Assembly: GCA_025454755.1 (NCBI GenBank)
Contig: JALONV010000014.1
Coordinates: forward strand, 1 to 37,089
Source of the DNA: Bacteroidales bacterium
GTDB lineage: Bacteria > Bacteroidota > Bacteroidia > Bacteroidales > VadinHA17
Length of the DNA stretch: 37,089 nucleotides
Direction: 5' to 3'
The notes beneath the pieces were generated by a model, which ran no database searches, was not told the origin of the DNA, and saw only the letters and a list, made by a program, of their open reading frames with translations. Below are positions 2,701 to 36,351 of this stretch, one piece after another (position 1 is the stretch's first letter; every line of letters begins with the position of its first letter). The position numbers and the translations under genes are program-made.

Positions 2701-2704
2701 TTTG

Positions 2705-2777
2705 TGATCCCGGAGAGACTCGAACTCTCAACCAACAGAACCGGAATCTGTCATTCTATCCATTGAACTACGGGACC
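2705..2777 (-). tRNA. tRNA-Arg (anticodon CCG)
   Basis: The 73-base minus-strand sequence folds as a full cloverleaf. The acceptor stem is GGTCCCG / CGGGATC with one G-T pair. The D stem is GTTC / GAAT. The anticodon stem ACAGA / TCTGT encloses the loop TTCCGGT, which gives anticodon CCG reading Arg codon CGG. The T arm is GAGAG-TTCGAGT-CTCTC. The discriminator base is A and the CCA end is not encoded. It has its own terminator. Confidence 0.95.
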
Positions 2778-2861
2778 AATGATGCGGTAAAATTAACATC
2801 TATAGGGCGGTTTGACAACTATTTGCCAAAGATTTTCTATTTTCGCCCTCTTAAGAAAAGA

Positions 2862-2897
2862 AAGCCCGAAGACAGAAGTCCGAATTCCGAAGTCATG
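2862..2897 (+). repeat. Left, degenerate heptanucleotide array, inverted relative to the 3321-3467 array
   Basis: Five 7-bp units in register (AGCCCGA, AGACAGA, AGTCCGA, ATTCCGA, AGTCATG) lie just upstream of the four-helix-bundle gene. Positions 2862-2884 match the reverse complement of 3324-3346 at 21 of 23 bases. The gene is therefore bracketed by arms that could pair as a long stem. The array is shorter and more degenerate than the right one. Confidence 0.8.
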
Positions 2898-2910
2898 AAT
2901 ACCTTATTTT

Positions 2911-3270
2911 ATGGAATTAAAATTTAAATTCGAAAACTTAATTATTTGGCAAAAAGCAATGGATTTTGGTGAAAATATTTTTAAAATTTCTACTCAATTT
3001 CCTAAAGAAGAAACATATAATCTGACTTCTCAGATTCGAAGGGCAGTGGATTCAATTGCACTTAATATTTCTGAAGGGTCAATCGGACAGTCAAATCCCG
3101 AGTATAAAAGATTTATAGGTATGGCAACCCGCTCTTTGGCAGAAGTTGTAACCTGTTTACATAAAGCTTCCAGAAGAAAATATATTTCTGATGAGGAGTT
3201 CAATGAACATTATAATTTTGCATACAACCTGATGAATATGATGGTGGCATTTAAAAATAAAATAAGCTGA
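2911..3270 (+). CDS. Four-helix-bundle protein (23S rRNA intervening-sequence / S23 family)
   Basis: The 119-residue protein matches the four-helix-bundle family first seen encoded in 23S rRNA intervening sequences. It opens with FENLIIWQKAMDFGENIFKI, then has SQIRRAVDSIALNISEGS, a family hallmark, and ends with a helix rich in Met and Phe. Members form oligomeric helical bundles; the related Avd accessory protein of diversity-generating retroelements binds nucleic acid, but no reverse transcriptase or template repeat is visible here. The molecular role of free-standing copies is unknown. The gene is clearly AT-rich compared with its neighbours and has no operon partner. It is flanked by heptanucleotide repeats in opposite orientation and sits between a tRNA and leuS, which suggests a small inserted unit. 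The start is the only good ATG in the open frame. Confidence 0.85.
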   Translation: MELKFKFENLIIWQKAMDFGENIFKISTQFPKEETYNLTSQIRRAVDSIALNISEGSIGQSNPEYKRFIGMATRSLAEVVTCLHKASRRKYISDEEFNEHYNFAYNLMNMMVAFKNKIS

Positions 3271-3320
3271 CATTAGGATGAAAATACCCTTTCACATTTG
3301 TCGTTTGCCTTCTTTCTCCG

Positions 3321-3467
3321 GACTTCGGACTTCCGGCTTCGGGCTTCGGACTTCGGGCTTCGGACTTCCGGCTTCGGACTTCGGGCTTCGGACTTCGGGC
3401 TTCGGACTTCGGGCTTCGGACTTCGGGCTTCGGACTTCCGGCTTCGGACTTCCGGCTTCGGACTTCC
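3321..3467 (+). repeat. Tandem array of 21 heptanucleotide units, consensus G(A/G)CTTC(G/C)
   Basis: Reading from 3321, the sequence divides without interruption into 21 units of exactly 7 bp. GACTTCG or GACTTCC alternates with GGCTTCG for most of the length, giving a 14-bp higher period. There are no indels in 147 bp. Because 7 is not a multiple of 3, all frames give related repetitive peptides, which explains several spurious overlapping ORFs. The array ends 33 bp before the leuS start and so lies in its leader or promoter region. Confidence 0.95.
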
Positions 3468-3500
3468 GTCTGATCTAACCAAATAATTATACTTTCCCCA

Positions 3501-6164
3501 ATGGAATATAACTTCAGCGAAATAGAGAAAAAGTGGCAGCATTACTGGGAGGAAAACAAGACTTTCAAAACTCCGGAAGACCTGACGAATCCAAAGAAAT
3601 GCTATGTACTTGATATGTATCCTTATCCATCCGGCGCAGGTCTTCATGTTGGTCACCCTGAAGGCTATACTGCAACCGACATTTATTCCAGGTATAAAAG
3701 AATGAAGGGCTTCAACGTTCTCCACCCTATGGGATGGGATGCCTTCGGACTGCCGGCAGAACAATATGCAATTCAGACAGGGACACATCCTTCAATTACA
3801 ACAAAAAACAACTGCGATACTTTCAGACGGCAGATAAAGGAACTCGGGCTTAGCTATGACTGGGAAAGAGAGATCAACACCACCGATCCGAAATACTATA
3901 AATGGACCCAATGGATCTTTATCAAACTTTACAATACCTGGTTCGATGAAAAGCTTCAGAAAGGAAGACCAATATCTAAACTGACCATTCCGGATGAAAT
4001 AAAGAAATCCGGGAAAAAGGAAGTCACAAAATACATTGACTCCAAACGCCTGGCTTATTACGACAATGCCATGGTTTGGTGGTGCCCAAGCTGCCGGATA
4101 GTATGCGCCAACGAGGAGGTACTGTTCGACGGATCACATGAAAAGTGCGGCAACAGGGTTGAGAAGAAAAACCTGAAGCAGTGGATGCTCCGTATCCCTC
4201 TCTATGCTGAAAGATTGCTCTCAGGATTTGACACTCTCGACTGGCCCGAAGGAATAAAGGATATGCAGCGCAACTGGATCGGACGGTCTACAGGCGCTGA
4301 AGTCGATTTTGCCATCGATGGCCTGAATGGTAAACTTACAGTTTTTACCACCCGCCCGGATACTCTTTTCGGCGCCACATATATGGTTATAGCGCCTGAA
4401 CATTCGTTTACTTCTGCCATAACCACTGATGAAAACAAAAATGCTGTAAACGATTATAAAAAAGCAGCGTCATTGAAATCTGATCTCGACCGTACTGATC
4501 TGGCCAAAGAGAAAACCGGGGTTTTCACCGGACGATACGCCATTAATCCGGTGAATCATAAAAAGATACCCATCTGGGTGGCAGATTATGTGCTCACCGG
4601 GTACGGTACAGGCGCGATCATGGCAGTGCCTGCTCATGATACCCGCGACTTCGAGTTTGCCCGGAAATTCAACCTTCCGGTTGTTTGCATACAGGACCCT
4701 GATGTATCCGATCCTGATCAGAAAAAGAGAATCATTTCCGGAAAAGAATGCTGGACCGAGGATGGCAAGTATATCAATTCGTCGGACCAAAAGACCGGAA
4801 TTGACATAAACGGTCTTAATAAGGAAGCAGGAATTGCCAAAATAACTTTATGGCTGGAGTCACAAAATCTTGGAAAGGAAAAAGTAAACTACAAATTGCG
4901 CGACTGGCTCTTCAGCAGGCAGCGCTACTGGGGTGAACCATTCCCGGTAATTCACTGGGAAGATGGTGAGATAACCCTGATAGATGAAAAAGAGCTTCCG
5001 CTTGAACTGCCCGAAATGGAAAAATACCTGCCGGGGGAAACAGGAGAATCGCCTCTTTCAAATGCAACAGGATGGCTCAATGTTACTGATAAATCAGGCC
5101 GCAAAGGGAGACGCGAAACCAATACTATGCCGCAGTGGGCCGGTTCATGCTGGTATTATCTCCGCTATATCGATCCGACCAATGACAAGCAGATCTGTGA
5201 TCCTGAAAAAGAGAAATACTGGATGCCTGTTGATCTTTATATAGGTGGCGCAGAACATGCAGTACTTCATTTGCTGTACAGCCGATTCTGGCACAAAGTG
5301 TTGTTCGACCTCGGGATTGTCTCCACCGATGAACCTTACATGAAACTTTTTAACCAGGGAATGATACTGGCTTATGCTTACGAAAATGAGTCCGGGGCAA
5401 AAGTAGCGGCAGATATTATCGAGGAACGCGATGGAAAATTCTTTGACAGCGAAACAGGCACCGAAGTAAAACAGATCGTTGCCAAAATGTCAAAATCTCT
5501 CAAAAATGTAGTCAATCCTGATGATGTTGTCACAAGGTATGGAGCTGATTCACTCAGACTATATGAAATGTTCATGGGTCCTCTGGATGTGACAAAACCC
5601 TGGGATGATAAAGGAGTGAAAGGCGTATTTAATTTCCTCGGAAGAACATTCAGGTTCTTCTCGAATCCCGAGATTATTGCGAATGGCGTGGAGGATCCTG
5701 AAATCCTTAAAGGTCTGCATCAGGCAATAAAAAAGGTGGAAGGGGATATCGAAAACCTCAGGTTCAATACTGCAATCTCAGCTATGATGATCTTTCTTAA
5801 CCTGGCAACAAAAAAAGCAAAAGTCACAAAAGAGACTGTCAGTATTTTTACAAAAATATTATCTCCTTTTGCCCCTCATCTTGCTGAAGAATTGTGGCAG
5901 ATGCACGGACATAATAAAACACTTGCATATGAACCATGGCCTGAGGTAAACGAAGAATATCTGAAAGAAGATACTTTCGAGTATCCTGTTTCATTCAATG
6001 GCAAACTGAGATTTAAGATTGCATTGCCTGTTAATATGGATAAGGAGGAAATCTCCCGCATTGTCCTGGCTGATGAAAGAGCGAAAAAATGGCTGGCAGC
6101 AGGAACACTATCAAACATAATTGTGGTTCCAAACCGGATTGTAAACATTGTTATTAAAAGCTAA
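3501..6164 (+). CDS. leuS: Leucyl-tRNA synthetase
   Basis: This class Ia synthetase charges tRNA-Leu with leucine in the cytoplasm. The 887-residue protein has the HIGH motif as HVGH at residues 49-52 within [16 protein letters not shown], and the KMSKS loop at 662-666. A zinc-ribbon-like segment (CPSC...EKCGN) follows the first Rossmann half. The CP1 editing domain contains [12 protein letters not shown] and [12 protein letters not shown]. The C-terminal anticodon-binding helices include [12 protein letters not shown]. The ATG at 3501 begins the family-typical [13 protein letters not shown]. No clear TAnnTTTG promoter is visible in the 33 bp between the heptanucleotide array and the start, so transcription may begin upstream of or within the repeat. 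The M23 lipoprotein gene starts about 10 bp after the stop. Confidence 0.98.
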
Positions 6165-32479: not shown

Positions 32480-32521
32480 TCTTTTGTCTTTGGTCTTTTA
32501 TCTTTTGTCTTTTATCTTCCT
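32480..32521 (+). repeat. Tandem array of six heptanucleotide units, consensus TCTTTT(A/G)
   Basis: From 32480 the units are TCTTTTG, TCTTTGG, TCTTTTA, TCTTTTG, TCTTTTA and TCTTCCT, in strict 7-bp register. The array fills the sufT-sufE spacer and, on the minus strand, supplies the sufE stop codon at 32514-32512. Confidence 0.88.
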
Positions 32522-32961
32522 TCGCCTGATGCCTGATGCCTGTCGCCCGTCGCCTTATATGCCATCGCATAAAGTTTCATCTGTCGCACCATCGACAACA
32601 GACCATTAGATCTGGTTGGTGAAAGATTCTGCCTCAGTCCTATCTTATCGATAAAATAAAGTTCTGCAGAGATGATCTCATCCGGAGTTCTGCCGGAGAG
32701 AACTCTTATAAGCAATCCTACAATCCCTTTTGTAATAATTGCATCACTATCGGCTGAGAAAAAGACATGATCATCCCTTAATTCGGGATGCAGCCAAACC
32801 TTGGATTGACATCCTTCGATCAGGAAATCCCTGGTTTTGAATTTTGAATCAATAGCAGGAAGGTCTTTCCCCATATCGATGAGAAGATTATATTTATCCA
32901 TCCAGTCATCAAATACCGAAAACTCATCAACTATAGTGTCCTGAACCTGGGTAACTGTCAT
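32512..32961 (-). CDS. sufE: SufE cysteine desulfurase-associated sulfur acceptor
   Basis: SufE accepts persulfide from SufS and passes it to SufBCD. The 149-residue protein has the acceptor Cys51 in IEGCQSKVWL and the family blocks GLLIRVLSGRTPDEI and LSPTRSNGLLSMVRQMKLYA. The conserved part ends at about AMAYK. The last roughly 12 residues (ATGDRHQASGEGR) are encoded by the heptanucleotide array at 32524-32551 and by the end of the 32480-32521 array, which provides the stop. The tail is therefore probably a recent repeat-derived addition. It lies 10 bp after sufS. Confidence 0.95.
   Translation of the reverse strand: MTVTQVQDTIVDEFSVFDDWMDKYNLLIDMGKDLPAIDSKFKTRDFLIEGCQSKVWLHPELRDDHVFFSADSDAIITKGIVGLLIRVLSGRTPDEIISAELYFIDKIGLRQNLSPTRSNGLLSMVRQMKLYAMAYKATGDRHQASGEGR
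32524..32551 (+). repeat. Four heptanucleotide units inside the 3' end of sufE
   Basis: The units GCCTGAT, GCCTGAT, GCCTGTC and GCCCGTC are in strict 7-bp register and followed by a partial GCC. They are a different sequence from the neighbouring TCTTTTR array, with only two bases between the two. They encode most of the SufE tail; gain or loss of a unit would shift its frame. Confidence 0.85.
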
Positions 32962-36324: not shown

Positions 36325-36351
36325 ATCGTGCAATCGTGCAATCATGCAATC
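36325..36351 (+). repeat. Octanucleotide tandem repeat in the sufB-sufC spacer
   Basis: ATCGTGCA, ATCGTGCA and ATCATGCA are three 8-bp units followed by a partial ATC. They occupy most of the 50-bp spacer between sufB and sufC, with CTTTTATCTT beyond, similar to the heptamer array near sufE. Confidence 0.8.

Follow-up and report, generated by a model that had tools for sequence, protein, structure and literature searches.

Intervening sequences (IVSs) of 23S rRNA genes are the described systems closest to the element studied here. According to the accessible text of PMC4990558, the 23S IVS of Coxiella carries tandem GACAGAT heptamers before an S23p ORF and has a terminal stem of 28 bp that is cut by RNase III; its authors consider expression of the S23p protein improbable and regard what 23S rRNA IVSs do, and where they come from, as unclear. 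A PF05635-type protein family has also been reported from 16S and 23S insertions of CPR bacteria (PMC11270868, accessible text). Heptamer arrays as such have been described independently: the accessible parts of PMC4692102 report heptamer repeats of Xanthomonas and Nostoc, with 70 and 75 convergent heptamer pairs in two Xanthomonas genomes, and those of PMC4679880 describe TAACTGA repeats. These resemble the arrays described below in being built of heptamers, but in the accessible text of the two reports they are not linked to a four-helix-bundle gene.

We analysed a window of 37,089 nucleotides from a Bacteroidales bacterium (contig JALONV010000014.1). A prediction made from its sequence alone (the original prediction) held that a gene of the 23S IVS family, bracketed by inverted heptamer arrays, forms a free-standing mobile, or formerly mobile, IVS-like cassette.

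A four-helix-bundle gene between inverted arrays in the leuS leader

The window gene encodes a four-helix-bundle (4HB) protein of the 23S-rRNA-IVS type (Table 1). In profile searches it matched PF05635 (E 2.4e-33) and TIGR02436 (E 5.7e-31), which confirms the predicted family. TRF recovered an array on each side, inverted relative to one another as had been claimed; the left one has a period of 7 and 4.7 copies (76% match), and the right one has a period of 14, equal to two heptamers (94% match). The reported complementarity of 21 of 23 bases between 2862-2884 and 3324-3346 was reproduced on recounting, with two of the 23 positions differing. It extends to 31 nt at 87% (2862-2892 with 3316-3346), and the left arm matches later copies in the right array over 33 nt at 85%. 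The exact 15-base pattern CGGACTTCGGRCTTC occurs at six places in the window's own genome, all at this locus and none elsewhere, and arrays of related units (AAGACGG/AAGACCG) are present at other places in that genome.

Table 1. Features of the element and its surroundings in the window
Feature	Position	Strand	Basis or remark
tRNA-Arg(ccg), neighbour on the element's other side	2704..2777	-	RNA family match
Promoter-like block TTTGCCAAAGATTTTCTATTTTCGC	2822..2846	+	by eye; directly 5' of leuS where the insert is absent
Left arm, tandem heptamers of AAGTCCG / AAGCCCG type	2862..2894	+	85-87% complementary to right array
4HB gene (23S_rRNA_IVP / TIGR02436), 119 aa	2911..3270	+	profile matches, AlphaFold2 model, Foldseek, dN/dS
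Right arm, tandem heptamers inverted relative to left (CGGACTTCGGGCTT, 10.6 x 14 nt)	3319..3466	+	TRF, arm alignment
leuS, host gene whose leader carries the element	3501..6164	+	ORF

The placement between a tRNA and leuS was also correct and could be refined: with the promoter-like block on one side and the leuS ATG on the other, the element occupies the leader of leuS. The block, a putative Bacteroidota -7 type promoter, can be made out by eye ahead of leuS in the majority of the genus genomes inspected. The 4HB ORF is the single gene between the arms, which thus enclose no transposase of the element's own as an IS would carry. In the predicted fold the left arm pairs with the right array (fold z-score -3.6, 20 shuffles). 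A 171-aa open frame on the minus strand (window 3273-3788), opposite the right array and the beginning of leuS, is probably spurious.

The locus shares with the 23S IVSs that carry an S23p ORF (Coxiella, Leptospira) the PF05635/S23p protein family and terminal inverted repeats whose pairing would enclose the ORF, and with the Coxiella IVS also the tandem heptamers before the ORF (PMC4990558, accessible text). Unlike them, it lies in a leader or intergenic region and not in rRNA, and its arrays are longer and locus-specific. The tRNA is the sole RNA family match in the window. Because an rRNA location was looked for and was not found, we file the element with the IVS kind but not as a 23S IVS.

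Matched arms flank 4HB genes in related and distant bacteria

To score the arms, the 250 nt 5' of each gene were aligned with the reverse complement of the 350 nt 3' of it (match 1, mismatch -2, gaps -4/-2); the window locus scored 19. Its genome contains nine 4HB-family matches, all nine with opposed short tandem arrays by eye and with a unit differing from locus to locus, and the arm score was at least 14 in all eight loci that have enough flank. In the same genome, random windows reached 12 in 5 of 318 cases and 14 in none of 318, and control ORFs did so in 3 and 1 of 99, respectively. The single control ORF at or above 14 (L163:8150-9238) sits between two separate gene-less palindromes; the region L163:7800-9500 thus holds a 362-aa gene flanked by two gene-less ACACGGAT palindromes.

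Homologues, whose flanks the original prediction had proposed to inspect for opposed arrays, were scored in three sets. The genus/order set comprises 78 of 179 tallied matches, mostly the better-scoring ones, of which 72 had enough flank for the arm score and 76 for shuffles and tandem scores; L037 and L068, with a stop in the core, were retained. The phylum set consists of 30 loci, the best matches of the phylum search, and the named-organism set of the best 80 of 582 confirmed stretches, 78 of them with flanks. Near relatives and leuS orthologues are included in the counts, so that the loci are not fully independent.

We observed an arm score of at least 12 in 54 of 72 genus/order loci (at least 14 in 47) and in 50 of the 78 named loci (38), but in just 12 of 30 phylum loci (10); a pair at or above 12 was absent at 18, 28 and 18 loci of these sets, respectively. 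Cross-paired flanks reached the two thresholds in 5.0% and 2.2% (genus/order), 2.7% and 0.87% (named), and 2.1% and 0.46% (phylum) of cases. For dinucleotide-shuffled flanks the values were 2.4% and 0/380, 1.8% and 0/390, and 2.0% and 1/150 (0.67%), in the same order. Among these best 80 of 582 stretches, loci not titled Bacteroidota scored at least 12 in 20 of 30 and at least 14 in 16 of 30. Their titles include Betaproteobacteria, Desulfosarcina, Sedimentisphaerales, Clostridia, Zambryskibacteria, Omnitrophica and Fibrobacter, many being MAGs and three of the 30 being titled only 'bacterium'; the Thiobacillus match, with a score of 12 in GC-rich sequence, looks doubtful.

The association of arrays with this gene family therefore holds in that matched arms lie far above the controls, but it is not exclusive, nine tandem arrays without a 4HB gene being present in 132 kb of control sequence. 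The window itself has solo arrays at two places. At 36325-36351 there is an intergenic solo array of ATCGTGCA (3.4 copies), an octamer that also forms the arms of L006, a 4HB element of the same genome. At 32480-32554 two adjoining heptamer arrays overlap the end of the minus-strand ORF 32512-32961 and encode its C-terminal tail.

The two arms of a locus change together

Of the 76 genus/order loci, 51 had a tandem score of at least 11 upstream (shuffles, 2.2%) and 51 had one downstream (shuffles, 0.4%); 35 of the 76 were tandem on both sides, and the period was equal in 34 of these 35. Among the named loci (best 80 of 582) the arrays were tandem upstream in 30 and downstream in 33 of 78, on both sides in 17 and with equal period in 15, and among the phylum loci in 3 and 4 of 30, never on both sides. 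A period of 7 was the commonest, followed by 8 and 9. The upstream arm contained more G than C in 44 of 54 paired genus/order loci (7 reverse) and in 44 of 50 named loci (3 reverse); at either end of the element the G-rich strand thus points towards the gene in its 5' to 3' direction.

We compared the arms of each locus with those of relatives of at least 40% identity. Own arms outscored cross-arms in 52 of 54 loci (mean 19.2 versus 9.2), and because of this we conclude that, as judged from their alignments, the two arms of one locus change together. The contrast is weaker within the leuS orthologues, where certain foreign arms matched those of L060 and L034 as well as, or better than, their own.

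If RNA pairing were under selection, G-U mismatches between the arms should outnumber A-C ones. The G-U:A-C counts were 33:57 (genus/order), 5:8 (phylum) and 17:21 (named), with no G-U excess in any set; the genus/order deficit (p 0.015, uncorrected) points in the direction opposite to RNA-pairing selection. As a G-U excess is absent, the more economical reading is copying at the level of DNA. Thus, the predicted stem with the gene in its loop agrees with the computed fold, but its arms bear no signature of selection for pairing.

Boundaries and context of the proposed cassette

Of the 18 near-related pairs compared, several located at different sites could be aligned across the gene plus ∼40-60 nt, or the arrays, per side, and not beyond. 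Homology is confined to gene and arrays in L005/L035/L070, L023/L045 and L057/L064, the last two being loci in one genome; these three groups of near copies are shown in a separate alignment. In four pairs the alignment continues further on one side or both, suggesting shared sites (L003/L046 and L040/L077 on both sides, L001/L021 and L080/L083). The pair L073/L074 was left unjudged upstream, since the contig of L074 ends within the array. The median aligned length from outer arm to outer arm was 474-511 nt. Hence, the repeats behave as the proposed ends of a cassette in that near copies stop matching at the arrays, but the unit is locus-specific and the ends have no constant sequence.

In 94 loci with arms and both neighbours called, the gene was in sense in 61 and in antisense in 11 between co-directional genes, the other 22 lying between opposed genes; by set, the sense:antisense ratios were 24:7, 9:1 and 28:3. 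None of the 80 named loci (best 80 of 582) matched rRNA. Interrupted genes were sought by joining the flanks, and in the 24 loci examined further neither an interrupted gene nor a target duplication was established; the long joined frames mostly came from a pair of adjacent, co-directional genes. We identified neither a transposase nor a recombinase or target-site duplication, and the empty leuS sites, which come from other species, are too diverged to place the ends to the base.

The leuS query matched in 58 of 58 genus genomes searched, in some of them just a distant synthetase, and a tRNA-Arg adjoins leuS in 26 of 31 loci scanned. Empty sites between the two had been suggested as a check, and both empty and gene-less versions were found in other species. 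In 18 of 43 genomes the promoter-like block ends at most 46 nt before the leuS ATG, and because of this short gap there is no room for the insert. A 4HB gene with GAAGNNN arms occupies the site in six genomes (G000, which is the window's, G004, G010, G012, G024 and G059). Gene-less hairpins with the GAAGNNN-arm unit were found in G006 and G045 (scores 11 and 18) and, by eye, in G065 and G021; those of G019 and G058 have another unit, and G041, G062 and G013 show solo arrays by eye. The leaders judged by eye were those of G000, G012, G010 and G047, plus the gene-less hairpins of G065, G021, G023, G011 and G009. Five leuS-site proteins included in a tree form one clade (support 100/98), which may reflect one old insertion followed by losses, or a lineage specific to this site. 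With 45 rows and few supported branches, the leuS tree does not date the gains and losses.

The predicted mobile nature of the cassette is thus borne out as far as array-bounded copies at different sites and empty sites go, but movement itself was not observed, and none was seen within a species.

GxxExxY genes with similar arrays

GxxExxY genes (TIGR04256) are present in 17 of 26 genus genomes. From 30 loci we tabulated 28, leaving out the partial L141 and L142; 25 have both flanks, and L121 and L129 carry a stop. Opposed arrays of the ACCACAGAG type gave an arm score of at least 12 at 22 of the 25 loci (cross-paired, 15%) and of at least 16 at 12 of 25 (cross-paired, 2.8%); part of the cross-paired matching reflects the common repeat unit. 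The upstream arm had more G than C in 5 of 22 and the reverse in 13, and the G-U:A-C mismatches (12:13) showed no G-U excess. GxxExxY-like arrays also form gene-less palindromes.

In one place of the window's genome a GxxExxY gene (G000:C150:2510-2860) and a 4HB gene (4978-5283) lie ∼2 kb apart, each with opposed arrays (scores 13 and 22). In the leuS leaders of several genus genomes, 4HB-type arrays were seen by eye 3' of the promoter block and GxxExxY-type palindromes 5' of it; G072 is an exception, having a heptamer-like array upstream of the block.

The 4HB protein and alternative explanations of the layout

The AlphaFold2 model of the window protein is a four-helix bundle (pLDDT 94.8), and its best Foldseek matches were 2gsc and 2rld. 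Finite dS (1.8-2.7, which makes the values rough) was available for 4 of 15 leuS-site pairs, with dN/dS of 0.055-0.09, and 4 of 6 other close 4HB pairs gave 0.05-0.08; dS was saturated in all remaining pairs. Because dN/dS is low, the 4HB protein is, on these comparisons, kept by purifying selection.

Such selection on the copies compared would also be expected if the arrays were iteron- or operator-like binding sites of the 4HB protein, and gene and arrays a self-regulating host cassette that does not move. The similarity of arrays between loci does track protein identity (Spearman 0.164, a value reached in 0 of 500 permutations), arrays being alike in 54% of pairs at 60-80% protein identity and in 0-3% below 60%. 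But this explanation requires inverted sites on both sides together with a fast, wholesale change of the unit, and near copies at unrelated sites have homology that ends at the arrays. Moreover, the net charge of the proteins is barely positive (+2 for the window protein; median +2 in 80 proteins). We consider it unlikely.

MITEs and REP/RAYT hairpins are small and palindromic, and a Y1/HUH transposase acting in trans is generally credited with moving REP elements. The window-type element is likewise small and palindromic, and gene-less hairpins with its unit exist; unlike those elements, it carries a conserved gene, has no fixed terminal sequence and shows no link to a transposase. A DNA hairpin mobilised in trans by a RAYT-type Y1/HUH transposase would find a potential enzyme in 23 of 26 genus genomes, which have Y1_Tnp matches. 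However, G007, G020 and G022 have no such match (assemblies 97, 98 and 87% complete) and hold 2, 5 and 5 4HB matches, and the element ends share no common sequence, which makes this route quite improbable.

The element could alternatively move through an RNA copy made in trans by a reverse transcriptase, with the Avd-like 4HB protein as partner. The sense orientation in transcription units would suit such a route, and so would the fold: after 2gsc and 2rld, Foldseek returned the DGR Avd (4dwl; also 8ub7 among known structures), a four-helix bundle with which the window protein has a TM-score of 0.75-0.79. The homology of Avd to PF05635 is noted in PMC10053308 (accessible text). The Foldseek E-value for Avd was, however, 0.045 or worse, with 6-11% identity in the alignments, and RVT_1 matches occur in just 10 of 26 genus genomes. 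Unlike a DGR, the window's genome has no RVT_1 match (97.8% complete, 9 copies), and the same is true of G010 (9 copies) and G015 (10). We regard this reading as very improbable. Neither a reverse transcriptase nor a Y1 transposase is supported as a necessary partner, as 4HB-bearing genomes exist without an RVT_1 or Y1_Tnp match. That intergenic simple repeats adjoin the 4HB gene by chance is hardly credible, for solo arrays do occur but in three sets the locus-specific inverted match greatly exceeds what cross-paired flanks, shuffles and controls give.

Discussion

The explanation that we favour, and consider probable, is that the element is a free-standing relative of 23S rRNA IVSs, a cassette bounded by inverted arrays and working in the following way. 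The cassette would be ∼0.5-0.6 kb long, with short tandem repeats forming an inverted array on either side of a 4HB gene. Its sense orientation in a host transcription unit, here the leuS leader, may permit expression from the host promoter, and in the transcript the arrays could form a stem that holds the gene in its loop. If rRNA IVSs are a guide, a dsRNase such as RNase III would then trim the element and limit the cost to the host gene. Slippage would make the tandem units, and, most simply, template switching on the hairpin would renew one arm from the sequence of the other, at the level of DNA, so that the arms stay alike while the unit drifts. The Avd-like 4HB protein probably binds the nucleic acid of the element and aids its spread or persistence, and the gene-less hairpins at the leuS site would be decayed copies.

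More tentatively, a wider generalisation is possible, in which such elements, spread over bacterial phyla, make up a class of transposase-free mobile cassettes with ends set by architecture, namely inverted arrays of short tandem units of almost any sequence, and not by a fixed sequence. The 4HB and GxxExxY elements would be its branches, both with gene-less derivatives, and the 23S IVSs would be members that landed in rRNA; regeneration of the arms by recopying would let the unit drift while the pair stays matched.

In the open-access literature (preprints excluded), as far as its accessible text goes, we found no description of arrays and 4HB genes as a general cassette. As judged from the sequences compared, the layout common to many bacteria points to a widespread and little-noticed kind of mobile cassette. 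Should the copies in rRNA turn out to be members of a large family of free-standing cassettes whose repeat arms match each other, the question of what IVSs do and where they come from could be tested in ordinary cultivable bacteria. This would also give a meaning to a small gene family matched in 90 of the 118 phylum genomes sampled, and would account for some of the heptamer arrays described from the spaces between bacterial genes.
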